DNA from: Candidatus Obscuribacterales bacterium
Lineage (GTDB): Bacteria; Cyanobacteriota; Vampirovibrionia; Obscuribacterales; Obscuribacteraceae
Length of the DNA stretch: 64,000 nucleotides
Reading direction: 5' to 3'
Assembly (NCBI GenBank): GCA_020050685.1
Contig: JAGVKG010000017.1
Span: forward strand, 1-64,000
In this document: positions 1-42,200 of the stretch, piece after piece
Layout of the letters: every line of letters begins with the position of its first letter
Position numbering within the stretch: position 1 is the first letter of the stretch
Position numbers and translations under genes: made by a program
Notes under the pieces: generated by a model
What the model saw: only the letters and a program-made list of their open reading frames with translations
Database searches by the model: none
What the model was told of the DNA's origin: nothing

Positions 1-747
1 AATATGAGGCTGCATTGCACGATTGATTTTGTCAATTGCATCTTGCATGGCAAAGTCTTTAGTATCCATTCTTACGTAAAACCTGTCGATTTCCCCTTCT
101 CTGGGAATCCAAGCCACGTCTGATGTTTCTGCCTGAAATACGATGATTTCAGGAACTTTTGGAAAGTCTGTGTCTATGATGCCATCGATTACGGCCCATA
201 CAATTTGTGGTCGCGTGATCGCAAAAGGTATTTCAAAATGATTCCGAACAAAGGACTGTGAACCATCCGCACCAATAATGTATCTTGACTGAATGCGCCC
301 TCCATTTGAAAGGGTCGTGAGACATCCCGTCTCATTGATCTCAATGTTTGCAATGGATGTTGAACGTTTTACCGCTGCAGCAGTCTCTCTCAGTTGCTTA
401 TCTAACAGTTTTTCTAAATGGGACTGTCCAAGCATGAGGAAGTGTTTGTGCAAACAACCCTCCAGTGCCTCCCACCATTTCGATTGTCGGGAAATAAACT
501 TTCCGTCTGCCCAAACAGAACTGGTGTTGCAGGTCTTTCCTAATGGGTAGAGTTCATCAAATAAATCAACTAACTCAAGAAGCTGTAAAGTGCGTGCGTT
601 AAGCGCATCAGCTCTGCCTACCTCTAAAGGACCATCAGACTTATCGAGTATAACAACATTGATACCACAAAGGTGTCCCAGGTAGGCACACATGAGCCCT
701 ACCGGGCCGGCGCCAACAATCACAATGTCTGCAACTTGTGTGCTCAT
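1..747 (-). CDS. FAD-dependent aromatic monooxygenase, partial (3' end beyond window)
   Basis: The reading frame is open from an ATG at 745-747 to the window edge, giving about 249 N-terminal residues. Residues 12-17 are the Rossmann dinucleotide motif GAGPVG, and GADGSQS at about 170 is the DG motif of class A flavoprotein hydroxylases (the p-hydroxybenzoate/phenol hydroxylase family), so it should bind FAD and hydroxylate an aromatic substrate using NAD(P)H and O2. Its ATG overlaps the TGA of the upstream oxygenase gene (ATGA), so translation is probably coupled. In known isonitrile clusters such as the paerucumarin pvc cluster, a flavin hydroxylase acts after PvcA and PvcB; the same role is inferred here. 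The substrate cannot be read from the sequence. Confidence 0.85.
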   Translation of the reverse strand, partial: MSTQVADIVIVGAGPVGLMCAYLGHLCGINVVILDKSDGPLEVGRADALNARTLQLLELVDLFDELYPLGKTCNTSSVWADGKFISRQSKWWEALEGCLHKHFLMLGQSHLEKLLDKQLRETAAAVKRSTSIANIEINETGCLTTLSNGGRIQSRYIIGADGSQSFVRNHFEIPFAITRPQIVWAVIDGIIDTDFPKVPEIIVFQAETSDVAWIPREGEIDRFYVRMDTKDFAMQDAIDKINRAMQPHI

Positions 748-1580
748 TGGTATGACTCCAAACCAGGATTATCAAAAGGAGGATTACTCAAAACATGAAC
801 TCGTTGAATATGACGAGGGGACTTAGAGACAAATCCTTCTCTACCATGTAATAACGAAAAATTATCTGCAATGACTACATCGCCAGTTTGCCACTCGTGG
901 GCATAGAAACAATCCGGTGAATAAAGAGCTTTTCCTAAACTTCGATGGAAAGCATCTAACTCTTCATGGTTAATGCCGGTAAATTCAAGAATTGGTGGAT
1001 TTACAAAATGACCTTTATCTTCAGAGGGATATTCATTGTAGCGAATTACTGAAAAATCCCGTTGGGGATGCTTAGTGATAACCGGCGATAGCATCTTACT
1101 GTTATAAAATTCCATTTTTCTTTGATAAGAACCAATCACTTTATTCCAAATTGCTTTTACTTCAGAAGAGGCGAACTTCAAAACTAAAATTGTGTTTGAA
1201 AAAGTTGTTGCTCCCCCTTGTCCAGGCAAAGGCGCTTTCACACAGTGAAAAATCTGATATTCAGGCACTTGTGGTCGATACATACCATCCCAATGTAGTG
1301 GCACGTGACTATGATCAAAAATGTGATCTTCCGGATTTTCTTGCTCAATTAACTCAAGTACCTTTCCAAATGGCCAAAGACTAACTTCTCCCCAGAACTC
1401 GCAATAGTTAGAAAAGTCCTCGGCATTTTGAAACGTATCAAACCCTCTTAATAAAACAAGTTGATGTTTCCTAAATAAATCACGCAAGTTCTCTATATCC
1501 AGATCTTGCACCTTCGCCTTTTCGTTCTCAGGCTCTACGAGCACACCAAATGGTTTCAGATGAGTAACTCTATGATTCAT
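744..1580 (-). CDS. PvcB/IsnB-like Fe(II)/2-oxoglutarate-dependent oxygenase (TauD family)
   Basis: This 278-residue protein has the TauD/TfdA iron triad: HWD at 96-98 supplies His and Asp, and H245 in LLHGREGF is the distal His. Arg256 or Arg260 (SPRHIQRVHV) is placed to bind 2-oxoglutarate. Length and motif spacing fit PvcB/IsnB enzymes, which oxidise the amino-acid-derived isonitrile made by PvcA, often by decarboxylative desaturation to a vinyl isonitrile. It overlaps the upstream isonitrile synthase gene by 11 bp and the downstream monooxygenase gene by 4 bp, so the three form one tight operon. Family membership is clear; assignment to isonitrile tailoring rests on the neighbours. Confidence 0.85.
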   Translation of the reverse strand: MNHRVTHLKPFGVLVEPENEKAKVQDLDIENLRDLFRKHQLVLLRGFDTFQNAEDFSNYCEFWGEVSLWPFGKVLELIEQENPEDHIFDHSHVPLHWDGMYRPQVPEYQIFHCVKAPLPGQGGATTFSNTILVLKFASSEVKAIWNKVIGSYQRKMEFYNSKMLSPVITKHPQRDFSVIRYNEYPSEDKGHFVNPPILEFTGINHEELDAFHRSLGKALYSPDCFYAHEWQTGDVVIADNFSLLHGREGFVSKSPRHIQRVHVLSNPPFDNPGLESYQ

Positions 1581-2652
1581 TTTGCACCTCTCCCCTTAAT
1601 TGATAGTGACTGGGCCGTCCATCAGAAGAATAAATTAGTTTTGCGCCTAAAGCTTCAGCTTGTGAGCGTTTCAACAAGGAAAAACCCTTCTTGCCTTCAA
1701 CAGCGACGCCATGCCAGGGAGTCATCCAGCTCTCATCTCCTATCAAACGAATTCCTAATTTCTTTGATCCACAAGTTTGTGGATGAATAGACAGTCGAAC
1801 TGCCTCAGGAAAATGCTCGAAAAGTAATTTACTCCAGGCATTACTTCTTCTTATGACCTCATATGCTTTAGCGCGAGCCTCTTTTTGGACGGCGGAACGA
1901 CTTTTCGTTTGTCCCGCATGAATGGCATCTTCAAATAAAAAACGAGTAATTCCACTGTACATACGATTTGCCTCTTGTTCATCAATGCTTGCTGATGGAT
2001 TTGCACCGTTGCGAATCCTGAGCTTGAGAAAGTCCAGGGTTTGCCCAAAGCATTTCATGAGTTCGTCACGCATTTGAACAAAGTTAAGTCCTTTATAAAA
2101 GTGATCAAGATTGAAAATTATTATGTCCGAAAGAGCCATTTCCTTCATAAGTCTATTTAGCTCAACTTGGTAGTCGGTCACATTATTTTCGTTCATTCCA
2201 ACCACATCACTAAAAACCCTTCCATCTGAACACAGAAAAATTCTAATACCCGGTGCATAAATGTTTCTTATTCGCTGACAAAGTGTGCCCAAGAAATTAA
2301 GAGCAAGTCTTTCAGCAAAATCTGGCAGAGGCCCCAGAACTTTTTCAGGGTTTGGGGATTTTCCTGGGAAGGCCGGCAATATAAAGGTTACAGGCTCATT
2401 CTTTTTGACAGCGGAGATAATTCTTTGCAATGGTAGTGAAGCGCACTTTTCACACCCCAAACCACATACGCTAACACCCTCCGGGACACGGCGAAAAGTC
2501 ATTACCTCAGCTAATATTCTTTTGGCAATTCCCATAGAAATTTCGCTATCTAATTGCTCTTGCCTTGCGCTGATTCGATTTACAGCACTTGATGATTTAA
2601 TTACCGGTGCAATTGCCACCGGCGAAACCAGACTACTCAAACTCACATTCAT
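1570..2652 (-). CDS. pvcA: Isonitrile (isocyanide) synthase, PvcA/IsnA/DIT1 family
   Basis: This 360-residue protein has the hallmark blocks of the DIT1_PvcA family: FPGKSPNPEKVLGPLPD near residue 95, FLCSDGRVFSDVVG near 140, and RLSIHPQ...KLGIRL near 290. Enzymes of this family convert the amino group of L-Tyr or L-Trp to an isonitrile, using ribulose 5-phosphate as the carbon donor. A C-x2-C pair (GLGCEKCAS, about residue 68) lies in the N-terminal part. It is first in a three-gene operon with a PvcB-type oxygenase and a flavin monooxygenase. The start at 2652 is weakly supported because only a poor GAGAAA-type ribosome site precedes it. Whether Tyr or Trp is used cannot be told by eye. Confidence 0.88.
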   Translation of the reverse strand: MNVSLSSLVSPVAIAPVIKSSSAVNRISARQEQLDSEISMGIAKRILAEVMTFRRVPEGVSVCGLGCEKCASLPLQRIISAVKKNEPVTFILPAFPGKSPNPEKVLGPLPDFAERLALNFLGTLCQRIRNIYAPGIRIFLCSDGRVFSDVVGMNENNVTDYQVELNRLMKEMALSDIIIFNLDHFYKGLNFVQMRDELMKCFGQTLDFLKLRIRNGANPSASIDEQEANRMYSGITRFLFEDAIHAGQTKSRSAVQKEARAKAYEVIRRSNAWSKLLFEHFPEAVRLSIHPQTCGSKKLGIRLIGDESWMTPWHGVAVEGKKGFSLLKRSQAEALGAKLIYSSDGRPSHYQLRGEVQNES

Positions 2653-2722
2653 AACAATTTCTCGCTTTCTTCAAAAAATGTTTTTGTAAAAAATTTATTT
2701 CGGTGTAGAATTGCATACAAAA

Positions 2723-2756
2723 AGAAGCCGAACCCTGTGGTGGGAGTTCGGCTTCT
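2723..2756 (-). terminator. Intrinsic terminator or attenuator in the pvcA leader
   Basis: On the minus strand AGAAGCCGAAC pairs perfectly with GTTCGGCTTCT (11 bp, 12-nt loop) and is followed at once by TTTTTG. It lies about 70 bases upstream of the pvcA start in the same orientation, with another hairpin just before it. It therefore reads as an attenuator inside the operon's own leader, not only as the end of another transcript. Confidence 0.75.
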
Positions 2757-2768
2757 GACATTTGCTAG

Positions 2769-2818
2769 TACGGCTATGTCACCCGAGGCTCCCCTCTGGC
2801 TTGATATGCATAGCCGTA
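2769..2818 (-). promoter_or_regulatory. Candidate leader-RNA hairpin upstream of the pvcA attenuator
   Basis: TACGGCTATG (2769-2778) is perfectly complementary to CATAGCCGTA (2809-2818). The 10-bp stem encloses a 30-nt interior that can form a small GAGG/CCTC hairpin. The layout, closed domain then terminator then first gene, is that of a riboswitch or attenuated leader. I do not recognise a known aptamer class. A weak minus-strand promoter (TTGTCT, 16 bp, ACTAAT) lies at about 2849-2876. Confidence 0.5.
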
Positions 2819-2901
2819 ATAGCAATTCCGCACGATTTTACCGGTCCTTATTAGTAGACATAGAACTGAAAAGACAAATAAGTAAGATCAAAAAACAAAA
2901 A

Positions 2902-2923
2902 GACCGCAGATATGACTGCGGTC
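2902..2923 (-). terminator. Intrinsic terminator downstream of the selB operon
   Basis: On the minus strand GACCGCAG and CTGCGGTC form an 8-bp stem around a 6-nt loop, followed by TTTTTGTTTTTTG. It stops transcripts arriving from the selB/3085-3666 unit and so separates that unit from the pvcA operon. Confidence 0.8.
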
Positions 2924-3084
2924 CACCATAGAATCAATACGCGAAAGCGTGCTCAGCCCTGGTGAACCTCCAAAAAACAATAATAGTAATAGCTGCGATT
3001 CAAGATTTCTTCTCCAAACTTGATACCAGGGTAATCGCATAAATCTTGCGCGTCAACACCTTGAGAACTTTGGTTAACACGCAA
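2924..3084. other. Intergenic stretch with interleaved inverted repeats, possible structured RNA
   Basis: No gene is visible here. It holds ACGC-GAAA-GCGT (2939-2950), CCCTGGT/ACCAGGG (2957-2963 and 3025-3031), TGCGATT/AATCGCA (2994-3000 and 3033-3039) and CAAGATTT/AAATCTTG (3001-3008 and 3041-3048). The last two pairs are interleaved, so they are mutually exclusive or pseudoknot-like. The stretch is either the 3' UTR of the 3085-3666 gene or a small RNA. Confidence 0.35.
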
Positions 3085-7774: not shown

Positions 7775-7889
7775 CTTTCGCATGGTGGGATTCCCACGCC
7801 AGATCTTGCTTTTTTCCTCAAAACATTGACAATTAGACTTACCTGGGCGTTGTCAACAAACCCAGCGAGCCGGAGCCCCATAGCAATTT

Positions 7890-12320: not shown

Positions 12321-12605
12321 ATGACAGAAGCAAGATTACGCAGTCTGACCATGACCACTAAAGGGCAGGTGACCATTTCCAGCAGGGCTCGCAAAGAACT
12401 CGGTCTGGATAAGGGCGACACTCTGATCGAAATGGTCATCGGTAACTGCATTGTTCTGTTACCAGAGAACCAAGTCTTAGCCGAGACTGCACGAAAAGCT
12501 CAGGAAGCAATCAAGCAAGCCGGCGTTACAGCAAAGGAGATCATTCGAGAGGCTGATCGGCTTAGAGCAACACGCCTGACAAAAAGATATCCCAATCTAA
12601 AATGA
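12321..12605 (+). CDS. AbrB/VapB-type antitoxin
   Basis: The 94-residue protein has the swapped-hairpin AbrB fold signature at residues 11-50: MTTKGQVTISSRARKELGL, then DKGDTLIEMV. A helical tail with basic residues follows. Such proteins bind DNA as dimers and inhibit a PIN-domain VapC toxin. The TGA stop overlaps the ATG of the next frame (ATGA), the classic vapB-vapC arrangement, but that toxin frame is broken. The antitoxin itself looks intact and may still repress its own promoter. Confidence 0.82.
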   Translation: MTEARLRSLTMTTKGQVTISSRARKELGLDKGDTLIEMVIGNCIVLLPENQVLAETARKAQEAIKQAGVTAKEIIREADRLRATRLTKRYPNLK

Positions 12606-12748: not shown

Positions 12749-12775
12749 CAAGATAGTAACACATGTGTTACTATC
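12745..12775 (+). promoter_or_regulatory. Promoter and 24-bp palindromic operator of the higBA-like operon
   Basis: -35 TTGACA (12745-12750) and -10 TACTAT (12769-12774) are 18 bp apart. Between and overlapping them is a perfect palindrome at 12752-12775 with half-site GATAGTAACACA. Binding there by the HTH antitoxin would block RNA polymerase. Confidence 0.82.
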
Positions 12776-12780
12776 AACAA

Positions 12781-13134
12781 GTGAGAGTCGAAGAATACAT
12801 CCTAGAGAATGGTTCAAACCCTTACAAGGCTTGGTTTGATTCGCTCGATGCACAAGCCGCGGCAAAGGTGGCTACGGCGAAGCTTCGCCTGGAAATGGGC
12901 AACACATCATCAATCAAATGGTTCGAAGGTATTGGAGAATATAGAATTGATTGGGGACCCGGTTACCGTATTTATTTAGCAAGAGATGGCAATGAGCTAA
13001 TTATCTTATTTGGTGGTGGAACGAAGATGAGGCAGGATGCCGATATAAAAGAAGCAAAACGACTTCATCAAGAGTACAAGACACGAAAAGCCAAACTAAA
13101 AACGGAACAGACCAAGCAGAATAAGAGGAAATGA
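12781..13134 (+). CDS. RelE/HigB-like toxin (phage Gp49-type addiction module killer)
   Basis: About 117 residues. EEYILENGSNPYKAWFDSLD, WFEGIGEYRIDWGPGYRIYLARDG and the basic tail DADIKEAKRLHQEYK are typical of the small HigB/RelE subgroup that precedes an HTH antitoxin. These toxins cleave translated mRNA. The frame opens at an ATG at 12763, but that lies inside the promoter, upstream of the expected transcript start. The GTG at 12781, at or next to the predicted +1, is the more likely start, which would make a nearly leaderless mRNA. The stop overlaps the antitoxin ATG (ATGA). Confidence 0.82.
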   Translation: MRVEEYILENGSNPYKAWFDSLDAQAAAKVATAKLRLEMGNTSSIKWFEGIGEYRIDWGPGYRIYLARDGNELIILFGGGTKMRQDADIKEAKRLHQEYKTRKAKLKTEQTKQNKRK

Positions 13135-13481
13135 ACATGGCACTTACTCGCGATTTTAAAGAAACGATTATTGAACGCGTTAATCGCGATCCAGATTTTG
13201 CTAAAGCATTACTGGATGAAGCTAGCACTCTGTTTCTTAACGGCGAGCCGGAAACAGCTCGCCTGATTCTTCGCGATCTAGTAAATGCCACAATTGGATT
13301 TGAGGCTCTCGCTCAAGAAATACCAGCACCTTCGAAAAGCTTGCATCGAATGCTTTCCGAGCGAGGCAATCCCAGCATGAACAATATTGCCGCCATCTTC
13401 AGCGCCGTAAGCAAAAATCTATCCGTAAAGATTGAGACGTCATCTGTCAAATCGCACAAGAGAAAGAAAGCCTTTATATAA
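13131..13481 (+). CDS. HigA-like HTH antitoxin
   Basis: This 116-residue protein matches the addiction-module antidote family paired with Gp49-type toxins: FKETIIERVNRDPDFAKALLDEA, then a helix-turn-helix (GFEALAQEIPAPSKSLHRMLSERGNPSMNNIAAIFSAV, given here as residues about 55-92) and a basic C-terminus. It should bind the palindrome at 12752-12775 and neutralise the preceding toxin. An internal ATG one codon later (MALTRD) has a better GAGGAAATG context. Its last 16 codons are duplicated at 11541-11591. Confidence 0.82.
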   Translation: MNMALTRDFKETIIERVNRDPDFAKALLDEASTLFLNGEPETARLILRDLVNATIGFEALAQEIPAPSKSLHRMLSERGNPSMNNIAAIFSAVSKNLSVKIETSSVKSHKRKKAFI

Positions 13482-26994: not shown

Positions 26995-27159
26995 AAATCT
27001 ACCATATGGTTGTCTGTATATATGCGTTCTGTTCTACTTCATCACATTGTTCCCAAATTAGAATCAAGTAGTCCCCCATTAATGTAAGCGTCCGGTAACC
27101 CACATCTTTGCAAAGAAAATTAAATGAGTCAAGATTGCTCTATCACGAGGGGCAAGGCA

Positions 27160-27543
27160 ATGACATTTGCGAAAAGAGATTTCGAGAAAGAGCAGAAATG
27201 GCGCGAGCTGATCAAGCAATGCAAGGAGAGCAAGCTGTCGGCATCTGCGTTTTGCAGGCAGACTGGCATCAAAGTTACCTCGCTATACAGCTGGATGAAG
27301 GTAATTCGTGAACGGGATCGTCTGTCGAAGACAGAGTCGAAGAGAGAAACGTCGCAACAGGCATCTTCGACATTTGTGCCGGTGCGAATCAGTCAGGAAG
27401 AGACTGTGCGTCGGGCACCCGGCACACGGGCAGAGATCAGCCACGTGGAAATATGGCTTAGCAATGGAAATATCATTCGAGCCGGCACAATGAGTCCGGG
27501 TGCAATTGCCGAATTAGTAAAGAGCCTTGATGCCACGTGTTGA
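27160..27543 (+). CDS. tnpA: IS66 accessory protein TnpA
   Basis: The helix-turn-helix protein begins EKEQKWRELIKQCKESKLSASAFCRQTGIKVTSLYSWMK, here abridged to residues about 8-46, and ends with the IS66 OrfA block VEIWLSNGNIIRAGTMSPGAIAELVKSL. The frame is open from 27124, but the ATG at 27160 has a GAGGGGCAAGG ribosome site and gives 127 residues. It probably binds element ends or regulates transposition. It overlaps tnpB by 7 bp. Confidence 0.88.
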   Translation: MTFAKRDFEKEQKWRELIKQCKESKLSASAFCRQTGIKVTSLYSWMKVIRERDRLSKTESKRETSQQASSTFVPVRISQEETVRRAPGTRAEISHVEIWLSNGNIIRAGTMSPGAIAELVKSLDATC

Positions 27544-27893
27544 ACTTTCCCGCATCGGTGCGTGTATTTTTCTGTGTGTTGCCGATTGACATGCGCAGAA
27601 GTTTTGACACGCTTTCGGAAATGGTGCGTGAGCACATTGGCGAAGATCCGCTGTCCGGTCATCTGTTTGTTTTCCGCAACAAGAATCAGGATTGCGTGAA
27701 AGTTTTGTATTGGGATGGTGATGGGTTTGCTATCTGGTACAAGCGTTTGCAGCGTGGATCTTTTAGTTTGCCAGGCAATGTTGGTGGTGGAATTGAGATC
27801 GATTCAACGTCATTTTCGATGCTCTTAAATGGGGTGGATTTGCAATCTATCAAGAAGCAAAAAAGGTATGCACTTTCGGGGTCGGGTGTCTGA
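27537..27893 (+). CDS. tnpB: IS66 accessory protein TnpB
   Basis: This 118-residue protein is the conserved IS66 Orf2: PIDMRRSFDTLSEMV, LFVFRNKNQDCVKVLYWDGDGFAIWYKRL and FSLP are all diagnostic. It starts at a GTG that overlaps the tnpA stop region, suggesting coupled translation. Its biochemical role is not well defined, but it is required for transposition in IS66 elements. Full length. Confidence 0.93.
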   Translation: MLNFPASVRVFFCVLPIDMRRSFDTLSEMVREHIGEDPLSGHLFVFRNKNQDCVKVLYWDGDGFAIWYKRLQRGSFSLPGNVGGGIEIDSTSFSMLLNGVDLQSIKKQKRYALSGSGV

Positions 27894-28037
27894 TCTTAAA
27901 GATTATGTTTCAGCCACGTTCAAGCCAGTTGTGGGTTTAAAAAATGGCTGTCTGATATCAGATATTTTTAGTGTGTTCAAAATATTATCGGCACGGTAGA
28001 ATAGGAGGCGAAATCTGCCACCGTATGTGCCACCACA

Positions 28038-29534
28038 ATGTCGCCAGTTGATCAACTCCCAGAAGATACAAAAGTCCTGAAGAAGGTTATTTCTGAGTTG
28101 TACAATCAGCTTGAGAGGCGCGATGGCGAGGTTGAAGAATTGCGCCATCAAGTGCAGATGCTCTTGCGTGCTCGTTATGGTCGTAAGTCAGAGGCATTTG
28201 TAGCTGGTCAGTTAACTTTATTTGAAAGTACAGAAGCGGAGCAAATACCTGAAGAGCGGTCGCCAGAGAAGGCAGAGACAAGCAATAAAAAGAAACATGG
28301 CAGGGGCAAGCCGTCGCGTGAATTGCCGCGTAAGAAAGTTGTGTATGAGCTTTTTGAATCGGAGTTGAATTGTCCCGACTGTGGGAAGACGAGAAAGAAA
28401 ATCGGCGAAGATACGAGCGAACAATATGAATATGTGCCGTCATCGATTTGCGTGATCGAGCACGTGCGATGCAAATACGCCTGCTCCGATTGTCAGGGAC
28501 AAGTGATTGTTGCTGACGGTGCGAACAAGCCAATCGAAAAGGGTCTAGCAACTTCTGGAATGCTTGCTTACATTGCGACGTGCAAATATGCGGACCATTT
28601 GCCGTTGAACCGTCTTGAAGGGATATTCAAACGACAAGGTGCAAAGATTGCACGTTCAACGATGTGCGACTGGATGGCAGCCACAGCTGGCATTCTGAAG
28701 CCGTTGTACAAGCGAATGAGAGAGCGAGTTTTGGTGTCACGGGTCGTTTGGACGGATGATACTTCGATTAGACTGCAAGACCGGCAAGACAAGAGAAACA
28801 TGCGGGAAGCGAGGATTTGGGTTTACATCGGAGACACAAAAAACAAATTTACAATTTATGATTTCACTGAATCAAGAAAGCGAGACGGTCCGAGGAATTT
28901 TCTAGCCGGGTTCAAGGGATATTTGCAAGCGGATGCGTTTGCCGGTTACGACTGCATATATGATGCTGGCGGCGTATTGGAAGTTGCTTGCATGGCACAT
29001 TCAAGAAGAAAGTTTTTTGAGTGCTTGGACAGCGACAAAGAAGCAGCAACGCAGGCACTTGAGATGATCAAGGGGCTTTACCGCATCGAAAAGGAAGCCT
29101 TGGATTTAGATGTAGGCATGCGGCGTCAAGTTCGTTTGCTAAGATCCGCTCCCCTTCTCAATAAATTCAAAAGATGGCTAAACAATCAAAAACTCCGTTC
29201 GTTACCGAGGACTCGATTTGGTAAAGCAATCACGTATGCGCTAAACAACTGGCGGGCACTGTGCAGATATCTCTGCGATGGAGAGCTAACAATCGACAAC
29301 AATAATTCCGAGAGAGCAATGCGATCGATCGCCATCGGCAGAAAAAATTGGTTGTTCGCCGGAAGCAGAGACGGAGGTCAGACTGCAGCGATCATCTCCA
29401 GTTTCGTCGCCACGTGCAAAGCTCACAACATCAACCCACAAGCGTATTTGCTTGATGTACTAACTCGTTTATCACAAGGCGAATCGGATTTGAATCAGCT
29501 CTTACCAGATGCCTGGGCGTCAGTTAACCTGTAA
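28038..29534 (+). CDS. tnpC: IS66 family transposase TnpC
   Basis: This 498-residue transposase has an N-terminal helical/leucine-zipper segment (ELYNQLERRDGEVEELRHQVQML, abridged), a zinc-binding region (CPDC near 113 and CSDC near 151), and a DDE domain. The catalytic acids are in RVVWTDDTS, LQADAFAGYD and NNNSERAMRS, the last being the conserved Glu. It looks intact. The gap of 144 bp after tnpB contains an AGGAGG at 28001-28006, too far from the ATG to be its own ribosome site. Confidence 0.95.
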   Translation: MSPVDQLPEDTKVLKKVISELYNQLERRDGEVEELRHQVQMLLRARYGRKSEAFVAGQLTLFESTEAEQIPEERSPEKAETSNKKKHGRGKPSRELPRKKVVYELFESELNCPDCGKTRKKIGEDTSEQYEYVPSSICVIEHVRCKYACSDCQGQVIVADGANKPIEKGLATSGMLAYIATCKYADHLPLNRLEGIFKRQGAKIARSTMCDWMAATAGILKPLYKRMRERVLVSRVVWTDDTSIRLQDRQDKRNMREARIWVYIGDTKNKFTIYDFTESRKRDGPRNFLAGFKGYLQADAFAGYDCIYDAGGVLEVACMAHSRRKFFECLDSDKEAATQALEMIKGLYRIEKEALDLDVGMRRQVRLLRSAPLLNKFKRWLNNQKLRSLPRTRFGKAITYALNNWRALCRYLCDGELTIDNNNSERAMRSIAIGRKNWLFAGSRDGGQTAAIISSFVATCKAHNINPQAYLLDVLTRLSQGESDLNQLLPDAWASVNL

Positions 29535-30202: not shown

Positions 30203-33200
30203 TTATGCGTAGCCGGTATTGGGTGGATAGAATCTTGGTGCGGTATTCACTGGAGCCCAAGGAGCAGTACCCGGCCAGACGTGTGGTAGACCTGGATTCG
30301 GTCCGCTAGGTGGCTTTTCGTTCCCTGGGGCACCTGGTGGAATCGGACACGCATTTCTTGGCATACCGGCGTCTCTAGCACGGTCATACGCCCCTTGCCA
30401 GGGATTAACCATGTGAATTGCATTTTCGATAGTTTTGCCAATATTTATGAGCGTATTGATCACAGGATTGGGATCTAACCCTAGAGGATCGGTGAACCCA
30501 ACTGGATTGCTTCCACAATATTGATAAAGATTACTCCGAGTACTGTCGCTGGCCACTGGGGCAGTAGGCAGTGGTTGAACGGCAGCGTAAAGATTTGGGA
30601 TGATATGTGAGTCTTGTGGTTCCGCAGATTCATTATCCGGACTGACCATACTTATCGATCCGGTCAATCTCTCGCCTAATGGATCCCTACTCAACCACCT
30701 TCCAAGTATAGAATTATAAGCTCTGTACAAAGTAAGGTTCAGCCCACTTCTTGAATGACTGTAATACCCGGCGTATCGAAAGTCAACGGGAACTGTTTCG
30801 CTGATGATAATTCCTATGCCGTAAGGATCGTAGGTATATTGTGCCTGGATGGTTCCGCTAGAGTTAGTCATTTCGCGGACCGAACTAAGGTGATCGGTGG
30901 TATAGAAATAATTGGTGCCGGAAACAGTTTGTCCAAGAGAGAAGAATTGTTTTGTGAGGCTACCAGTGCCATCACGTTCTTCACAGCGTTGATTGCCGCA
31001 CCAGATGAATTGTTTAGTGCTTGTAGTGCTGCCGCCAGTTTGCTCGATTATCTTTGCGCAACGCCCAAGTCCGTCGAAAGCAAATTGGCTGTTGTTGCCA
31101 GAGCCGGGATAATTGATCTGGACCAAGCGATTCTCAGCATCCCACTGATATGTGTTGGTGCCATCGTTCGTTAAGTTGCCATTGCTATCGTAAGTCAGAG
31201 AAGTGCTGCTTCCGGTATCAACAGTGACAGTCTTGTTCAAAGTCGCGGTATTATTGCCACCATCAACGGCTTGAACGCTTGCGGAATTGGAGCCTGTGCT
31301 AAGCGTTGTGTTGCCGATGAAAGCCTTCGAATAGGTGAGAGTCATCGGCGTGCTGTTAACTGATGCCGATTTCACAGCTTTGTTGGTTGTACCTTGGAAT
31401 CTTGTTGATCCACCGGCAGCCAAACCAGTAAGCTCGTTGACATTGTTGAAGGTGGCTTGGGTTACATTGGTATTTCTGACAACAGTGACAGTTTCTGTCG
31501 CACCGCCGCTAGTAGAGCCGGTGAAATTGGTTGCATTGACTGATTGCGCGGTAATGCTTACTACAGCGGCATTGGACGCGGCACTGACATTAATGGCTTG
31601 CAGATTTGCGTCAGCATTGATTGCATTTTTTAGCGCAGTGGCTATGGATGTTAGTGTGTCTCCACCTTGAACGGTGTAGTTGATAGCCATTTGACCACCA
31701 GACAGACCGGAATCGATAATGGTAATTGTGACGGTATCGCCTGCGGTGGCAGTGCCGCCGATGGTGGCAGTTTGCGCACCATTAACTTGGACTGTGGTGC
31801 GGTTGGAGGCAAGGTCGTAAGCGTAATAGAAATATTGATTAATGTATTGAGGAGTTGGATTGCCGATGACGGTTTGGTTGGTGATTAATTGTCCTGCCAG
31901 GTCATAAGCAAAGTTATTTTGCACGGCCGTATTTGTGCCACGTTGTTGTGTCCATTGGTTAATTTCCCCGGCCGAATTATATGTGTACCCGAATTGAGAA
32001 AGAATCTGAGCACTGGGATTTAAGTTGCTGATTTGTTGCAAGCGCTGATCGCCGGTGTTGTTGTAGTAACTGAAGTTGGTGACTTGGCTATTTGGATAAG
32101 TGATTGAGGAAAGACGTAACGTTCCTTTGGAGGAGCCGGGAGTATTGTCAACGTATTGATATGCAAAGTTACCTAAAGTATTGGCTTCGGCGGTGATGCG
32201 ACTCATAGCATCGTAAGTCCACGTAATGGAATTTGTTGAGCTATTGATTGAGCGATTGGTTGTGCGACCGAGGGCGTCGTAAGTGTAAGTTGTGGTGGAA
32301 TTAGAAATTACGTTGTTAGTAACTGATGCCAACCTGCCGCCACCGGTCGTCGGAGTAGCGAAGGGGTTGGTGATGTAGTTGTTGTAAAAGTAAGTTACAG
32401 TGCCCCATCCGTTTTGCACAGTTGAGATGCGCGGATAGTTTTGGTCATAGGTAAAGTTAACGGTAGAAGTTGGATTGACAGGATTTGTGTAGCTCATCTG
32501 CGAGAGCGTATTGTCCAGATTGTAAACGTAGTTAGTTGTTTGATTGAGAGCGTCAGTTTTTGATTGCAGCCGACTGGTAAAAGCTTCATAAACATAATCA
32601 ATGTCCGTGCTGTCGGCGTAAATCTTACGAGTGACGCGTCCTTCAAGATCGTGCTCCCAAGTCGTTATATGATTGGCAGGATCGGTTAAGGTTGCTAGCG
32701 AGCCACAATTGCACCAGGAATAAATTGTCTTACGAGAAAGCGGATCGACGTCAAAGGCAAGTTGATCCATAGAGTCGTAGTTTCTTGTTGTCCAGCGACC
32801 ATTTCTGTCTTTGAACATAACAGCATCAAGCTTGTCGTAAATAATTTGCTCGGTGGTTGTGTCTGGATAGAGAACTTGCGTCAACCTGTTTGCAGCATCA
32901 TAGCTGTAAGTTAGCGTATAGCCCTCAGAGTCCGTGACTGTTAGGAGTCGCCCAAAAGAATCGTAAGTGAAAGTAGTAATGTCCAGATTGCCGGAAAGTG
33001 GGCCGTTTATTTGCGTGAGGTAACCATCGCTATCATACGTAAGCGTTGTTACATTGCTGTTGGCATCTGTAAGTGTGGTCAGTTCACCAAAACTATTGTA
33101 CGCATATTGAGTCTGTTGACCAGAGCCGTCGATGTATGTATTTGGCACATGCTTACTGTTGTTATAAATCCATTTGCCAATCAGGAAATTATTTCCGTTT

Positions 33201-36200
33201 TTGGTTTCGCGTTTTTCAAGCAAGTCTACGTTGTTGGCGGAATATAGGTAGGAAAATGTTCTGCCAATCGGATCGATTGCTTGAGTGACCAGGCCTGCTG
33301 CATTGAACTGGTAATTGTATGCCTGCATATTGCTGTTTGAAGCAACACCAAGACTAATGGTTTCTGTAGCTCCGGTGCTTGTTGATTGAGCATAGCTAGT
33401 AAGATTAGCCGACGTTGAAGTCATGTTGACCACAGCCGCAGAGGATGATGCGCTTACACCAATGGCTTGCAGGCTTGTATTGGCATTAATTGCGTTCTTT
33501 AGTCCGGTGGCAATATCAGTAAGAGTGTTACCCGATTGCACTGTGTAATTGACATTTGCTTGTCCGCCAGAAAGACCAGCGTCAAAGACAGAAAGAGTAA
33601 GCACGTCACCAGTCGTAGCAGTTCCACCTATGGTGGCGGTTTCAGTTATGTTGACATTTGCACCAAAGACAATGGTTTCAGTTGCACCAGCACTGGTTGA
33701 TTGGGAATAGGTAGTAGTGTTTGTGGAATTTGACGTAATGGTGACAACTTCATTCAAAGAAGTTGCCGAAACATTGATCGACTGCAGATTTGTGTTGGCA
33801 TTAATTGCGTTCTTTAGCCCTGTGGCAATATCTATCAGCGTATTGCCTAGCTGAACCGTGTAATTGATTGCTTGCTGTCCACCTGGTAGTCCTGAATCAT
33901 TGACAGTGATTGTAAGTACGTCACCAGCGGTTACGGTGCCATACAGAGTGGCGTTGGTTGGCCCGTTGCCTTTGACCAAACGAGAGATGCGAATTGGTCG
34001 ATTGGTAGTGCCTAGGTAATTTCCACCAGTTTCACCTTCTGTCGTATAAGTGATGGCAGATTCTAAGGGTGGCTTAACGAAGTTGATAACTGGCGATTCG
34101 ATGCTTTGGCTGGCATCAAACAGAAACTTCGTCGTGGTGCAATGGGTGTAAACCATATTGCCTGGATCCGACGGATAAAGCGCAGCCTGCTCGCGATCCC
34201 AATAATAGGATGACTTAACTTCACCAATCCAGTTTTCTAGTACAGCAGAAGATTTGTCAGGGAAATTGAAACGCAATCCTCTGGTAGGCGCAGTGCCACC
34301 AGGAGGCGTGTATTGATAAAAGGAAGTTGTGCCATAGGGAGTGGTCATGGCAGTGATTAACGATGTGGTGGCATCGCTGACGAATTGAGATACTAAATTA
34401 ATGACATCGGTGATCGATACCAAATATGTCGTGCCTGGGTCGTAAGCAAAATTTGCTTGACGGGTAAATGGATCGGTAATCCTCGAAATTTTGTAATAGC
34501 CAACATTGCCAATTGTGTTAGACACATAGGTAATAGAAGTCTCTTGACCAAGCGCATCTCTTATGGCGGTGACTCGGAAATTTGCATCATACACAATGAA
34601 GGCAGAGTTTCCTTGGGGATCAATCATCTGGGTCATGAAGATTTTGCCGGTACCATCAGGTTGATTGTAGACCTCAATAGAACCATCTGGAAGCTGTCTT
34701 TGATAGGCGTTAACGCCGACAACACTAAGTATTGCCTGCGAGGTCACATTGGGCGGATACGGATTGCTAACATTGTCCGGCAATGTGTAATTGTAGATTT
34801 CAGAGCCGCCCCCAGGAGCAAATACCTGGGCGTTGAGAGAAGAGTCCAATTGAAGATAAGCGACCCAATTAAAACTCCAGTCCGGGCCAAAGTTTGGGAA
34901 AGTAAATGTTCCAGGTTGGTCCGCTTCCAGATAGTTATAGTTAACAGTAAAATCCATCTTAGGCCCAACCGGCGGCTTATAACTAAGCGGTGTGTCCATA
35001 ACGTTCAGAGTGGCTTGCATTGTGAAAGCAGCTGCCCTGGCCATCCCAGTGTTACAATCCGGAGGAGGTGGTGGATTTGTTTTGGGACAACCTTTCCCTT
35101 TGGCCTTTTGATTTTGATTCTGTGAATCTCCCTTGCCCCAAACAGATTCTGCTTCTTGCTTGCTTACTGTTTGCCAGCCAGCGGGAAGTTCACGGCCAGG
35201 TATGAGAAAGTAGCCATCGGTTTGAGACTCTAACGCTTGTGGCGTTATCCACGCCATCGCATTTGTGCCGAAAGTCGGATCTTTGATTTGGTATTTGCCT
35301 TTCTTAAATGCTGTGATTGCACCAAAGTGATCGACTTTCCAGTGCACTACAGAAGGAACAACAAAGGTAGTTCCTTTTGCTCGTTTGGCAATTTGATATT
35401 TGAGCCCAACTTTGTCGGCCAAATCCTTCAATTGAGCAAGGCTGGTACCGTTTCTTGTTGAAGGCACTCCCTTGAGTATTGGATGTTGTCCATTGGTTTT
35501 CTTGTCTAAGTTGAGAATTGAATTGAGTGCAAAGGGACCGCATTTGAAAGATGTTCCAGGACTGTGCAACATGGATTGCAGACCGCCACGCGCCTCATCA
35601 ACTTTCGTCTCAATAGAACCCAAAAGTGTGCGGTTCTTGATTTCTCCCAGGTGTTTTTGCAGTTCATCAAGTCTGCCAAGGCGTGCCTCAAGGGTGACTA
35701 ACTCGGCAATTGAGCGATCGGCAACAGCTTTGACCGCACGATCCGTTTCATTTTTAGTTGCTTCCCAAGCAGAGTTCCAGTAGGTCAGTGCATCTGTTAA
35801 ATAACCACGATCAAATTGGAACAATCCGAGATTCATCTCAAGGGCTGGACGCCAGCGTGAGTGTGGATGTGATGAAAGAAAGTTTGTCAGAGCCGACGCA
35901 TCATCAGGATTTTTTCTGGATTTGAAATTTGTTAACGCATTCGCTAGCGCTTGATCCTCGCCCAATTCCGGTTTGCCGGCAAGTGGGGCCAGCGGCTCCG
36001 GAAAAACACGTGCTGTAGATATTTCCAGATCGGTCGGTTGAGCAGAGAAACTTAACTGCGGTTTGAAGATTGAGACACTTCGTGGCCCTCGTTTTACGTT
36101 CACTTGAGGTGTGGTTGGTATTACCACGTCATGCACAGGCTTATTACTTCTTGTTTCGACTGCCAATGCCATCTGTGCTGGCATTGTTGATGCAAGTAGC

Positions 36201-36274
36201 ATTAGCATCATTACCGATGTAATGATTTGGCGACCGAGTTTCTGATATCTGTGTTTCTTTTGCATGATTCTCAT
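30203..36274 (-). CDS. Exported RHS-repeat protein with N-terminal C39-like peptidase
   Basis: This 2023-residue protein has a signal peptide (about 1-38, ending MALA), then a TPR-like region, then a C39-type cysteine peptidase: Cys245 in FKCGPFALNS, His316 in DHFGAI and Asp in IKDPTFG near 333. From about 430 it is a beta-rich RHS/YD-repeat shell, with three related roughly 95-residue inserts near 775, 878 and 1500 (GDxLTIT...INYTVQxGxTL..IAxxLKNAINA). The RHS core ends GRWLSRDPLGE near 1860, followed by a short Pro-rich tip with no recognised toxin fold. The peptidase may process this or the neighbouring giant protein. It follows the LamG giant by 12 bp. Confidence 0.85.
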   Translation of the reverse strand: MRIMQKKHRYQKLGRQIITSVMMLMLLASTMPAQMALAVETRSNKPVHDVVIPTTPQVNVKRGPRSVSIFKPQLSFSAQPTDLEISTARVFPEPLAPLAGKPELGEDQALANALTNFKSRKNPDDASALTNFLSSHPHSRWRPALEMNLGLFQFDRGYLTDALTYWNSAWEATKNETDRAVKAVADRSIAELVTLEARLGRLDELQKHLGEIKNRTLLGSIETKVDEARGGLQSMLHSPGTSFKCGPFALNSILNLDKKTNGQHPILKGVPSTRNGTSLAQLKDLADKVGLKYQIAKRAKGTTFVVPSVVHWKVDHFGAITAFKKGKYQIKDPTFGTNAMAWITPQALESQTDGYFLIPGRELPAGWQTVSKQEAESVWGKGDSQNQNQKAKGKGCPKTNPPPPPDCNTGMARAAAFTMQATLNVMDTPLSYKPPVGPKMDFTVNYNYLEADQPGTFTFPNFGPDWSFNWVAYLQLDSSLNAQVFAPGGGSEIYNYTLPDNVSNPYPPNVTSQAILSVVGVNAYQRQLPDGSIEVYNQPDGTGKIFMTQMIDPQGNSAFIVYDANFRVTAIRDALGQETSITYVSNTIGNVGYYKISRITDPFTRQANFAYDPGTTYLVSITDVINLVSQFVSDATTSLITAMTTPYGTTSFYQYTPPGGTAPTRGLRFNFPDKSSAVLENWIGEVKSSYYWDREQAALYPSDPGNMVYTHCTTTKFLFDASQSIESPVINFVKPPLESAITYTTEGETGGNYLGTTNRPIRISRLVKGNGPTNATLYGTVTAGDVLTITVNDSGLPGGQQAINYTVQLGNTLIDIATGLKNAINANTNLQSINVSATSLNEVVTITSNSTNTTTYSQSTSAGATETIVFGANVNITETATIGGTATTGDVLTLSVFDAGLSGGQANVNYTVQSGNTLTDIATGLKNAINANTSLQAIGVSASSSAAVVNMTSTSANLTSYAQSTSTGATETISLGVASNSNMQAYNYQFNAAGLVTQAIDPIGRTFSYLYSANNVDLLEKRETKNGNNFLIGKWIYNNSKHVPNTYIDGSGQQTQYAYNSFGELTTLTDANSNVTTLTYDSDGYLTQINGPLSGNLDITTFTYDSFGRLLTVTDSEGYTLTYSYDAANRLTQVLYPDTTTEQIIYDKLDAVMFKDRNGRWTTRNYDSMDQLAFDVDPLSRKTIYSWCNCGSLATLTDPANHITTWEHDLEGRVTRKIYADSTDIDYVYEAFTSRLQSKTDALNQTTNYVYNLDNTLSQMSYTNPVNPTSTVNFTYDQNYPRISTVQNGWGTVTYFYNNYITNPFATPTTGGGRLASVTNNVISNSTTTYTYDALGRTTNRSINSSTNSITWTYDAMSRITAEANTLGNFAYQYVDNTPGSSKGTLRLSSITYPNSQVTNFSYYNNTGDQRLQQISNLNPSAQILSQFGYTYNSAGEINQWTQQRGTNTAVQNNFAYDLAGQLITNQTVIGNPTPQYINQYFYYAYDLASNRTTVQVNGAQTATIGGTATAGDTVTITIIDSGLSGGQMAINYTVQGGDTLTSIATALKNAINADANLQAINVSAASNAAVVSITAQSVNATNFTGSTSGGATETVTVVRNTNVTQATFNNVNELTGLAAGGSTRFQGTTNKAVKSASVNSTPMTLTYSKAFIGNTTLSTGSNSASVQAVDGGNNTATLNKTVTVDTGSSTSLTYDSNGNLTNDGTNTYQWDAENRLVQINYPGSGNNSQFAFDGLGRCAKIIEQTGGSTTSTKQFIWCGNQRCEERDGTGSLTKQFFSLGQTVSGTNYFYTTDHLSSVREMTNSSGTIQAQYTYDPYGIGIIISETVPVDFRYAGYYSHSRSGLNLTLYRAYNSILGRWLSRDPLGERLTGSISMVSPDNESAEPQDSHIIPNLYAAVQPLPTAPVASDSTRSNLYQYCGSNPVGFTDPLGLDPNPVINTLINIGKTIENAIHMVNPWQGAYDRARDAGMPRNACPIPPGAPGNEKPPSGPNPGLPHVWPGTAPWAPVNTAPRFYPPNTGYA

Positions 36275-36286
36275 TTGTTATATACG

Positions 36287-39200
36287 TTATTGGGCATTTG
36301 GTGGCAATTGGAGATTAATGTTAAGTACAGTCGGATCACCTGCGTCTGGAGCGGGCCAAAATGATGAATTTAGAGTGTAAGTAGCACTTGAGACGCTGCT
36401 GGAGATCCCATTTCTAACGGCGATTGCCTTAAGCGTCAGAGTGTAATAAACACTCACAGGTCCCGTGTATAAAGTAGAACTTGTCGTTGGTGTGGAACCG
36501 TCTGTAGTGTAGTAAATCGAGTTACCGTTTTGAGCAGAAATAGCAACTTGAATTGGCGCACTGGGAGAACTTGTTCCAACAGATATTGTTGGTGGCAATG
36601 GTGCTGCTAGACCCAGTTGATATTTCTGGAGCAAATATCCGGTCACACCGGCTTGCTCTGCTCCTGTGAGTGGGCGATTATAGACGAGTAGTTCAGCAAG
36701 ACCACCTTGATAGAAGTTGGCACTTGCATTGTAGTTAGACCCGACATGATTCATGGTCCTGTTTATATTGTTCGGATTGCTCAACGTGCCAGATGCCTTC
36801 TGAGTGCTGTTAACAAAAATGTTTCCTGTCGACGATCCGCTTTGAAGTGTTTCAAGCAATTGGAACTGACCAAGTGTTAGCGAAGTTGTGGCATTTAGCG
36901 TGCTGCCCGTGCTGCCACGATAGACACTAAAGGTAGAGGTTGTGCCGTTATTGCTGACGGTTAAATTGTCGCTTGTAGCACCATTCGCTAAATCAAGAAC
37001 GTAATGAGGTCCACTCGTTGCCGGATTCAAGACAGCAAATACAGTTGCGCCGGAGGCAAAAGCATTGAAGTTAGAACCAGGCGAAGAAAATGCCAAATTG
37101 TCATTGCTTCCATCAAATGTTACCGCTGGCAAACTATTGATTGCGTTTGTTGTAAGCACTGGTTGATTAGCACCGGTTGCTTGTGCAGCATTGTTGCCAT
37201 TGCCAGATACATCTAGCCAATTGCTTACGTTTGAGCCACTGGTGACAACTCCTAGATCGCTCTTGAGCCAGACTTGCAATCCGTTGAAGGTTACGGAAGT
37301 GGCATCTGCGTCAATTTGAATATATGCAGTAGCTACTGAACTTGTCTGGGTTCCTCCTCTAACGGCTATCGCTTTGACTATCTTCGAGGTGGAAACGGTG
37401 AAAGGAGTGGTGTATTGAGTAGAGCTAGTGGTTGGAGTCGAACCGTCCAACGTATAGTACATCGTGACCCCAGGGTCACCTGTAAGCGTAATTGTTTGTG
37501 GACCAGGATAAGCACCAGTCCCTGGGGTAATTGTCGGTTGGTTGATGGCAAACTGATAACGGCTCAACAAATATCCTTCGACATTTACTCGCTCTGTACT
37601 TGACAGCGCCCTGTTGTAAACAAGATACTCAGCAATTTGTCCGTTGAATAAATTGCCACCGCTATACCCTTTGCCAATAAAGCATCCGGTTCTAGTTACA
37701 TTGGAAATGTTGTTTAATGAGCCTGTTGCGTTGACATTGCCGTTTGTGAAAAGTGTTGCTGAACCCGCACCATTGTGGACGACCTCAATCAATTGATATG
37801 TCCCTGAAGTTAATCCAGTTGAGGATATGAGGCTGCTTGGATTTGACACGCCATTAACATCAAATTCAAGGCCGTTAGGCGAGACCTCTTCAATCTTCAA
37901 ATTATTTCCATTCAGTCCTGTTGCGTAGTCAAAGAAGCGCAGACCGGTTGTGATTGATGTTGGCTTAGTGACTAGGAAGATACTACAACCATCAGTCCAC
38001 TGCGAAAATCCATTCGGGAACTGCATGTAGTCACTTGAGCCATCGAAATTCAATGCAGGCAAGCCGTTAATTTGGTTGGTTTGGAATGTTGGCTGATTTC
38101 CTGCGGTAGCTTGTGTTGCGGAATTGTTGCTTCCCGAAAGATCAAGCCAGTCGCTTACCGTTGAACCATTCAACGTTACTCCAATATCTGATTTGAGCCA
38201 GGTTATTAGCTGATTACGACTCACATTTTGAGTGGTTGCGTCAATTTGAATAAATTGGCTTGCAACACCGCTAGTGGCAGACGGACTTGTCCGCACGGCA
38301 ATTGCTTTTATTGTCTTTGTCGAGGTTACCGAAAATGGCCCGGTGTACAACGTTGAACTTGTTGTTGGTGTGCTTTCGTCATCTGTGTAGTAAATCGCTA
38401 CCGCAGGATCGGCAGTTATTGTGACAGTTTGACTTGTCGCATAGACTCCGGTTGTCGGTGTGATTGTCGGAGTTGTAATTGCAACACCGTACCGACTGTT
38501 TATATATCCTTGAACTGATATTCGCTCAGACGCGCTCAATGGGCGATTGTAGATCAGCACTTCTGCAATCTTTCCTGAGAAGAAATTCTGCGCATTGTAT
38601 GCGCTTCCTAAATAGTTACCCGTTCTCACCACATTGGTTACGTTATTAATTGAACCTTGTCCAACTTGTGCTCCGGAGATATATAAGGTGGCGGCGCCTT
38701 GTCCATCTTGAACGGCCTCGAGTAACTGATATGCACTGGTTGATACTGTGTTTGTTGACGTTACGTTGCTTGTGCCGCCAGCAGATGTATTGATGTCCAG
38801 CTCAAATCCACTAGTTGTTCTTTCCGCCAATTTCAGATTGTCGTGAGAAGCTGAAGTAGCTAAGTCAAAGAAGCTTGCACCGGCAGTAATGCTGCTCGGC
38901 ACTGTCACAACAAAGACGCTAGCGCCTTGGGTAAAGTTAGATAAACCTATCGGGAATTTCATGTACTGCGATGAGGCGGACGTAAATGAAATTGTAGGTA
39001 GGTTGTTAATCAATATATCGGAGCTGACAAAACCTGGTTGGTTTGCGCCGGTCGGCTGAACAGCAGTATTTCCTGAACCTGAAATATCTAGCCATTGACT
39101 GACCTTGTTACTGGTTTGTGTTACTCCTTGGTCAGCCCGCAACCAAATCGCCATGTCACTCCGACTTACGTTCGCCGTCAAGGAATCGATGGTGATAATC

Positions 39201-42200
39201 GCCGTTGCAACTGTACTGGTTGCAGAAGGAGTTGTGCGCACCGCGATTGCTTTCACTGTCGTCGTTGCACTTATATTAAATGGTCCAGTGTAGAGAGTAG
39301 ATCCGGTCGTTGGGGTTGAACCATCGGTTGTATAGTAAATTGAAACACCAGCATCGGCCGTAATTGTCACAGCCTGCGGAACAGAACCTTGAACACTAGT
39401 TCCTGGACTAATCGTCGGTGTGCTAATTGGAAGGCCGTATCGCGTGATTAAATAGCCTTCTACTGATGCACGCTCAGATGTGCTCAACTTGCGATTGTAC
39501 ATGATGATTTCGGCAATCTCACCGGTGAGGTAATTGGTGCTAGTACCGCTGTAATCACGAGCAAGATAGTTGTTTGTCCTGGTTACATTAGGAATGTTAT
39601 TCATAGTGTTCTGTGCACCCTGAATACCATTAGTCAAGAATGTACCAATGCCGGCACCATTGTGCATGGCCTCGATCAATTGATAGCTTGTGCTAATGGC
39701 ATTTGTCGAAAGCACGCTGCTTGCCGTTCCATCAGTGAGATTTACATCAAATTGCGCCCCGGTTGGCGCGCTCTCAATAATTCTTATGTTGTCGTGGCTC
39801 GGTGATGTGGCAAATTCAAAGAAACGTTTTCCGCTAGCAATTGTCGTTGGTTTGGTTACGACAAAAATACTTGCGCCTTGTGTAAAGTTCGCAAGCCCCT
39901 GCGGCAATTGCATGAAATCGTTTGTACCGTCAAATACAATTGCCGGTAAGCCGTTAATGGAATTGTTTTGCAGTGTCGGTTGGTTAGTTCCCGTTGCTTG
40001 TGTGGCATTGTTGCCTGATCCGGAAACATCAGCCCAAGCGGTCACGCTTGTTCCACTTGTCGTCACGCTATTGTCTGATTTGAGCCACATCATCATGCCA
40101 TCACGACTAACGTTTGCAGTCAGCGCGTCAATTTGAATGTTAGATGTAGTTACGCTACTTGTTTGCGGTACTGATGCTCGGTAAGCGATTGCCTTTACGG
40201 TTGTTGTTGTCGTTATATTGAACGGGCCGGTATATAAAGTAGAGCTGATCGTCGGTGTTGAGCCGTCGGTCGTATAGTAAATTGCCACACCAGGATCAGC
40301 GGTTATGGTCACAGACACTGGTGAAGATGTTTGCACGCTGCTGCCCGGACTAATCACAGGTGGGCTAATGTAAATTGCATAACGACTGAAGAAGTATCCT
40401 TCGACGGAAGCGCGCTCTGTATCACTTAACGTACGGTTGTAAACCATGAACTCTGCAATTTGTCCATTGAACAAATTGCCGGCACTGTAACCCTTACCGA
40501 TAAAGCACCCTGTACGGGTGACGCTCGGAATATTAATAAGGGAACCTTGTCCTACCTGGGTAGAATTGGAGAATATTTGTCCGCTGGCACTTCCTGAATG
40601 TATTGCTTCTATCAGTTGGAAATTGGAAGTACCTAAACCAGTACTTGAAGTAATAGCGCTGGGGTTTGCCACTCCGTTCACATCAAATTCAAGCCCTGAC
40701 GGATTTATTTCCTCAATCTTTATATTGTTGGAATTCAGTCCAGTGGCAAAGTCAAAGAAACGCAGATTAGTTGTAATAACTGATGGCTTTGTAACCAAGA
40801 AGATGCTGCAACCATTCCAATCGGCGAAGCCATTTGGAAACTGCATGAAGTCAGTTGAACCATCAAAGCTTAACGCTGGCAGACCATTGATTACATTCGT
40901 TTGAAGAGTTGGTTGATTTGCGGAAGTAGCTTGCGTTGCATTATTTCCACTCCCTGACAAATCAGTCCACTGACTTGCAGTTGAGCCGTTCAAAACCACA
41001 CCACTGTCTGACTTGAGCCAGATCTTCATATCGGTGCGGGGCACATTTTGTGTAGAGGTATCAATTTGAATATTCGCAGTTGTAACCGCACTGGCTGTGT
41101 ACGATGGACCTGCCGCTATTGCCTTAACAACTGTTGAGCTTGAGATATTGAATGGTCCCGTGTACAGAGTCGAACTTGTCGTTGGTGTTGATCCGTCTGT
41201 CGTGTAATAAATAAAAGCGCCAGGAGCAGCAGATATGCTTACTGCCTGCGGGCTTGTGGAAAACACGCTATCGCCCGGGGTAATTACCGGTGCTGCCAAT
41301 GTCGGTGCATTGCCAACGTTATATTTGCTCTTGAAATAGCTCTCTATAGCAGCCTTATCGCCATTTGTCAGCGCCGAATTGTAAACAAGAATTTCGGCTA
41401 TCTGTCCGTTTAGGAAAGTCGTGGTGTTGAAATCCTTGCCGATAAAATTGCCGGTTCTTGCTACATTGTTTATATTGCTGAGATTTCCCTGAGCTGTTTG
41501 TGCTCCATTGGAATACAAAGTTGCATTGCCGGCTCCGCTGTGAATCGCCTCAAGCAATTGATAGGAACCAGTACCGAGACCAGTTGACGAAGTTACGTTG
41601 CTTGCAGTTGCCCCATTATATGAATAAAGACTGAAACCAGTTGATGCTTGTTCTCTGAAGCTAATATTGTTATTAGTCTGGCCGTTGCCGAAATCTAAAA
41701 ACCGAACTCCTGTAGTAATTGACGTTGGCTTTGTTACGACAAAAATACTGGCACCTTGCGTAAAATTCGCAAAGCCAGAGGCAAGCGACAGCCACTGATT
41801 CGTACCATTAAAGCTGATAGTCCCTAATCCATTTAGGGCATTGGTAACAACAGTAGGTTGATTGCTGCCAGTTGTTTGTGACGCATTATTTCCATTCTGA
41901 GATTGATCAGTCCATTGGCTCACGTTTCCAGAACTTGATACTACTCCCGCATCTCCTCGCAGCCAGAGCAAAAGATTGCTGGCACGCTGAGGCACACTTG
42001 TCATTAAGACGACGTGATCAAAAGTTGCTGTACTTAAAGTTCCAACTACATTACTGCTTACTGCAAAGCCGGAATAAAAGATAGTGGGAAAAGTCGCTAT
42101 TTCAGAGCTCCCAACAAGTGTCCACGATAATCCATCGGCACTTTCATATCCTGCAAAGCTTGTACCGCTTCGGACTAACCTGAGCCACACTGGTGCGGCA

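Follow-up and report, generated by a model that had tools for sequence, protein, structure and literature searches.

The isnAB isonitrile genes of Legionella have been published (PMC5126622), and the pvcAB genes of L. pneumophila are described as regulated by iron, with induction in biofilms (PMC11705809, PMC5835138). The oxygenases that follow the isonitrile synthase were divided by Kim et al. (2022, PMC9467999) into vinyl-isonitrile enzymes, with K/R at position 107 and N/H at position 188 (PIsnB numbering), and isocyanoacrylate enzymes, with L at 107 and C at 188; single-residue swaps at both diagnostic positions left the product of PIsnB-Ah unchanged.

We analyzed a 64,000-nucleotide stretch of DNA (the window) from a member of the Obscuribacterales, which are non-photosynthetic Cyanobacteriota/Melainabacteria and are placed in Candidatus Melainabacteria by the NCBI taxonomy. 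An earlier note on this DNA had recognized an isonitrile operon in an unusual host, and the host was indeed found to be unusual. The same note had confined this kind of cluster to pseudomonads, Xenorhabdus and hapalindole producers, which proved too narrow since many Legionella and Bdellovibrionota carry a near-identical operon. Nothing in the literature that we searched linked Obscuribacter or Melainabacteria to isonitriles.

Layout of the operon across two contigs

The three genes at the start of the window (Table 1) had been described as tightly overlapping and belonging to one isonitrile operon, and both parts of this description were upheld. The pvcA and isnB genes overlap by 11 bp and isnB and the flavin monooxygenase (FMO) gene by 4 bp, which argues for a single predicted transcript. 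All three proteins gave strong family matches: PvcA scored 251 bits against PF05141 (cut-off 26.4; 1.8e-74), IsnB 159 bits against TauD (3.2e-46), and the FMO half 106 bits against FAD_binding_3 and 522 bits against NCBIfam NF005531.

Since window position 1 is also base 1 of contig C20, and hence a true contig end, the FMO gene was cut by the assembly and not by the window. When the full-length FMO of a relative (PRK07190 type, 936 bits against a cut-off of 530) was compared with the same genome, its residues 1-248 matched the start of C20 and residues 248-483 matched the end of C50, a contig of 13,311 bp. The second half of the FMO gene, an MFS gene and an ATP-grasp gene lie at that end of C50 on the same strand, so that the operon reads pvcA-isnB-FMO-MFS-ATP-grasp; the suspicion that more tailoring genes lay past position 1 was therefore well founded. 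By eye, the two contig ends have seven bases in common (AATATGA), and the FMO frame runs on across the join, with MQPHI / HILSF as compared to MQPHTLSF in relatives. It is from this frame and from homology that we infer the junction between the two separate contigs.

The order pvcA-isnB-FMO recurred in 65 of 80 related loci, far beyond chance, and the same operon order was present in four further Obscuribacterales genomes (G013, G034, G026 and G012, SZAS-4 being among them).

Table 1. Features of the isonitrile operon in the window (contig C20) and on contig C50
Feature	Coordinates	Strand	Size, match or basis
pvcA/isnA, isonitrile synthase, operon gene 1	1570..2652	minus	360 aa; Pfam DIT1_PvcA
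isnB/pvcB, Fe(II)/2-oxoglutarate desaturase	744..1580	minus	278 aa; Pfam TauD
FMO, N-terminal 249 codons, open at contig end	1..747	minus	Pfam FAD_binding_3; NCBIfam PRK07190 type
FMO, C-terminal half	C50:13310-12594	minus	full-length FMO of a relative as query
MFS exporter (predicted)	C50:12597-11440	minus	family match
ATP-grasp ligase, ATG at 11447	C50:11447-10215	minus	match to ATP-grasp of a relative
5' leader/intergenic region of operon	2653..2940	minus	two strong hairpins

Enzymes and predicted products of the pathway

PvcA matched two solved structures, 3e59 (P. aeruginosa PvcA) and 9dhm, and retained all the invariant blocks that it shares with them (LPAFPxKSPN, SDGxxFxD, RSxAW, RLSIHP and WxTPWHGVA; alignment A1). 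A Tyr-specific placement, proposed as a check, was not obtained: in a tree of 82 rows, PvcA was separate from the reference tyrosine enzymes 3e59 and 9dhm. It also scored 267 bits against a cut-off of 600 for the L-tyrosine isonitrile synthase equivalog NF045653, and both results count against a firm assignment of the substrate. In the scheme that we propose, PvcA would take a carbon from ribulose-5-phosphate and join it to an aromatic amino acid, probably L-tyrosine, forming the corresponding isonitrile. An indole isonitrile derived from Trp, of the kind known from hapalindole cyanobacteria, would suit a host loosely related to cyanobacteria and a PvcA that stands apart from the tyrosine enzymes. 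We considered it quite improbable, given that the PvcA of Fischerella/Westiellopsis is distant (46% identity, on a very long branch) and that the solved relatives of the FMO are class A flavin hydroxylases and phenol-type hydroxylases.

The best PDB matches of IsnB were PvcB (3eat) and PIsnB (7tcl), P. aeruginosa PvcB scoring 287 bits versus 262 bits for PIsnB, and the metal-binding HxD...H motif was retained (H96, D98 and H245). At the positions of K107 and N188 of PIsnB, the window enzyme has R and N, which is the PIsnB type, whereas P. aeruginosa PvcB has L and C. The designation PvcB-type oxygenase was therefore correct by family and incorrect at both published diagnostic positions. The R/N pair was common to 62 of 86 aligned rows, in which a few loci were counted twice; the oxygenases of G012 and G013 have R and G. 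As a forecast only, these residues predict a vinyl isonitrile and not the isocyanoacrylate that leads to paerucumarin, under a rule that is correlative because point swaps alone did not switch the product of PIsnB-Ah. The earlier note had named vinyl isonitriles or coumarins such as paerucumarin as products; the former agrees with our prediction and the latter does not, as the IsnB residues are of the PIsnB type. The PIsnB-type Fe/2OG enzyme would carry out a desaturation with loss of CO2 to yield a vinyl isonitrile, e.g. (E)-4-(2-isocyanovinyl)phenol.

None of the five genes of the operon is of the HpaB type, the third being a FAD_binding_3 gene. Among the 80 related loci, FMO was present in 65 and PvcC in 6, and in no locus did the two occur together next to pvcB on one strand. 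Because the FMO stands where an HpaB-type PvcC stands elsewhere, ring hydroxylation, the role filled by PvcC in those clusters, is likely its reaction. The third gene was thus rightly called a flavin monooxygenase, and it occupies the place of PvcC, but it does not belong to the PvcC/HpaB family of P. aeruginosa.

The oxygenase could instead retain the carboxylate as an isocyanoacrylate and the FMO form a catechol, ending in an isonitrile coumarin or in an amide made by the ATP-grasp enzyme from that carboxylate. P. aeruginosa PvcB being the top PDB match agrees with this outcome, which would also make a carboxylate available for ATP-grasp activation. We nevertheless found a paerucumarin-like product unlikely: the oxygenase is PIsnB-like at the two diagnostic positions, the operon is without an HpaB-type PvcC, and coumarin formation would use up the carboxylate.

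The ATP-grasp ligase is of the PRK07206 type (556 bits, cut-off 302) and has the dapdiamide synthase DdaF and L-amino acid ligases among its relatives. It would form an amide, which could resemble an acyl-histidine or incorporate the pathway product; since a vinyl isonitrile is without a carboxylate, the acid used at this step may be a different one. The MFS protein would export the product. The ligase occurred in 26 FMO loci, and in a set of 45 genomes from the genus of L. steelei, all 16 ATP-grasp matches above 500 bits lay within 5 kb of PvcA. In Cyanobacteria bacterium RYN_339, an ATP-grasp match was detected by tblastn alongside PvcC.

The Legionella operon is said to produce both an aromatic isocyanide and N-acyl-histidines. 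A variant compatible with our preferred explanation is that PvcA, IsnB and FMO make a small isonitrile while the ATP-grasp enzyme separately makes N-acyl-histidines. The review PMC11631085 and PMC13005658 cite work by Torring et al. (2017) on acyl-histidine formation in L. pneumophila, which the review attributes to an ATP-grasp enzyme. In addition, 39 of the 65 FMO-bearing loci had no ligase nearby, indicating that the isonitrile branch can stand alone. On the other hand, FMO and ATP-grasp are fused into a single 900-aa ORF in L. steigerwaltii (L015:8931-11633), and wherever the ligase occurred among the sampled loci, the cluster also encoded a ring hydroxylase; both observations suggest one pathway. 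We regard two separate products as quite possible, if short of probable. Should FMO and ATP-grasp act serially on the vinyl isonitrile, the result might be a so far undescribed conjugate of a hydroxylated isonitrile with an amino acid (or an acyl group), common to Legionella, predatory bacteria and Obscuribacterales, spread by transfer and possibly serving as a defence or signal against protists or other grazers, an idea that we offer tentatively and with considerable doubt.

Origin, host and regulation

In the PvcA tree, the five Obscuribacterales copies formed one clade (100/100) that was joined to four Legionella species (100/99) within a larger, mostly Legionella group (100/95). The FMO and ATP-grasp trees agreed with it in outline, and a three-gene concatenate again recovered the Obscuribacterales clade (100/100) and its join to the four Legionella (100/99). 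A constraint that forced all 13 Legionella rows together, a set that includes divergent rows, was rejected (p 8e-6); when only the core Legionella rows were held as one clade without Obscuribacterales, a focused AU test rejected the constraint marginally (p 0.045). Identity to L. steigerwaltii was 79.6% for PvcA, 83.1% for IsnB, 85.9% for the FMO half and 83.6% for the ligase, or 83% over the three window proteins; all four are as close to L. steigerwaltii as to proteins of their own family. In the gene trees the Obscuribacterales copies thus sit within Legionella, and acquisition of the operon in Obscuribacterales from a Legionella-like donor, the simplest account, is most likely.

We also looked for a vehicle. 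A scan of IMG/VR with the FMO half found no relatives, so a phage link was unsupported. A plasmid collection contained an FMO match in one Burkholderia stagnalis replicon only (66%) and PvcA matches of at most 51%; with matches so few and so low, no plasmid vehicle was identified.

In keeping with a Legionella-like donor, the GC content of the operon was 42%, as compared to 47% in the remainder of the window and ~39% in the nearest Legionella loci. This lower GC, and the position of the operon at contig ends, is what would also be seen had Legionella DNA from the same sample been put into the Obscuribacterales bin. However, the operon is linked to other genes on both contigs, and the adjoining SelB-like gene had its top matches within the same family (up to 48-49% identity, against 33-35% for the sister family), from which we concluded that contig C20 fits the host. 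Moreover, the four other Obscuribacterales genomes carry the operon on contigs of 22-574 kb, and the Obscuribacterales copies form a clade of their own. Contamination is thus highly improbable, and we ruled it out on the basis of the host neighbor genes and the independent genomes. On balance, we consider it likely that this is a five-gene, Legionella-type isonitrile operon from a Legionella-like donor, with the reaction scheme proposed above.

The assembly is 4.2 Mb in size and 98.7% complete. PvcA was present in 5 of 36 sampled family members, the window genome included, and in a draw of 292 genomes it was found elsewhere in the phylum in one further genome only (G099, RYN_339). By eye, the window also contains three ORFs resembling an IS66-type transposase set (27124-29534), two small adjoining ORFs like a HigB/HigA-type toxin-antitoxin pair (12763-13481), and two adjoining ORFs of ~2000 aa with signal-like N termini that are probably secreted or surface proteins (30203-42664). 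PADLOC found no defence family.

The leader of pvcA has two strong hairpins (fold z-score -5.0), of which the one at 2722-2758 is terminator-like; they could act in attenuation or simply terminate transcription of the gene upstream. A riboswitch was rejected, as no Rfam family reached its gathering score and the best match, an Enterococcus sRNA, was far below it. Copies of the leader were found neither elsewhere in the genome nor upstream of pvcA in relatives. Upstream of pvcA in the four Obscuribacterales relatives, we identified the element ATGCAT-N16-ATGCATTGGAC-N18-TA (L008:7400-7456; L009, L010 and L011), with half-sites 22 bp apart and TTGGAC as a possible -35. The element occurred twice in SZAS-1 (L075), at 7795 before pvcA and at 12345 before MFS-ATP-grasp, and the full element was not found outside these sites in the 1.48 Mb examined. 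A LelA/BsrA-like LysR was present in five genomes, namely the four Obscuribacterales relatives and SZAS-1, and we predict that this LysR and the element are a candidate regulator/operator pair in the relatives. We found neither a match to the LysR in the window genome nor the element in the window.

The operon of SZAS-1 is a mosaic: its ATP-grasp belongs with Obscuribacterales (98%), but PvcA and FMO fall in other parts of their trees. A LysR gene lies between pvcB and FMO.

Comparison with known isonitrile clusters

Transfer from a Legionella-like donor has thus most likely brought a complete natural-product operon into a non-photosynthetic sister lineage of cyanobacteria. The analysis corrects the expected product from a coumarin precursor to a predicted vinyl isonitrile, and points to pvcA-isnB-FMO as a widespread kind of cluster in which the monooxygenase and ligase reactions are directly testable. 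Two loci of this survey depart from the usual arrangement. In Legionella norrlandica (L087), pvcA is split over two frames while pvcB, FMO, MFS and ATP-grasp match in full, and the split gene may be a pseudogene or a sequencing error. The planctomycete Candidatus Uabimicrobium amorphum has two pvcA-pvcB loci (L034 and L037), one of them with FMO.

The pvcABCD cluster of P. aeruginosa shares the PvcA and PvcB families, their order and a ring hydroxylase with the window operon, but has L/C in PvcB and an HpaB-type PvcC in place of R/N and FAD_binding_3. The clusters of RYN_339 (L074/L012) and of a gammaproteobacterium (L040) likewise share pvcA-pvcB-hydroxylase and MFS, and RYN_339 shares the ATP-grasp as well; they differ in having an HpaB-type PvcC and an HpaD-like extradiol dioxygenase, and L040 also has an asparagine synthase. 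In these PvcC-type clusters (L040 and L074), an isonitrile catechol might undergo ring cleavage, which would amount to a pathway of its own. The isnA-isnB genes of the rhabduscin cluster (Xenorhabdus/Photorhabdus) encode the same PvcA family and a PIsnB-type desaturase, with the same predicted vinyl isonitrile intermediate, but a glycosyltransferase lies beside them; the five genes of the window operon include none and have FMO, MFS and ATP-grasp instead. The Legionella isnAB/isocyanide cluster is like the window operon in gene set and order, with 80-86% protein identity to L. steigerwaltii, although Legionella-type loci have a divergent LysR (32 loci) and the window operon is without a LysR beside pvcA. 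The chemistry is thus of a known kind, and it is the host and the transfer that are unexpected.
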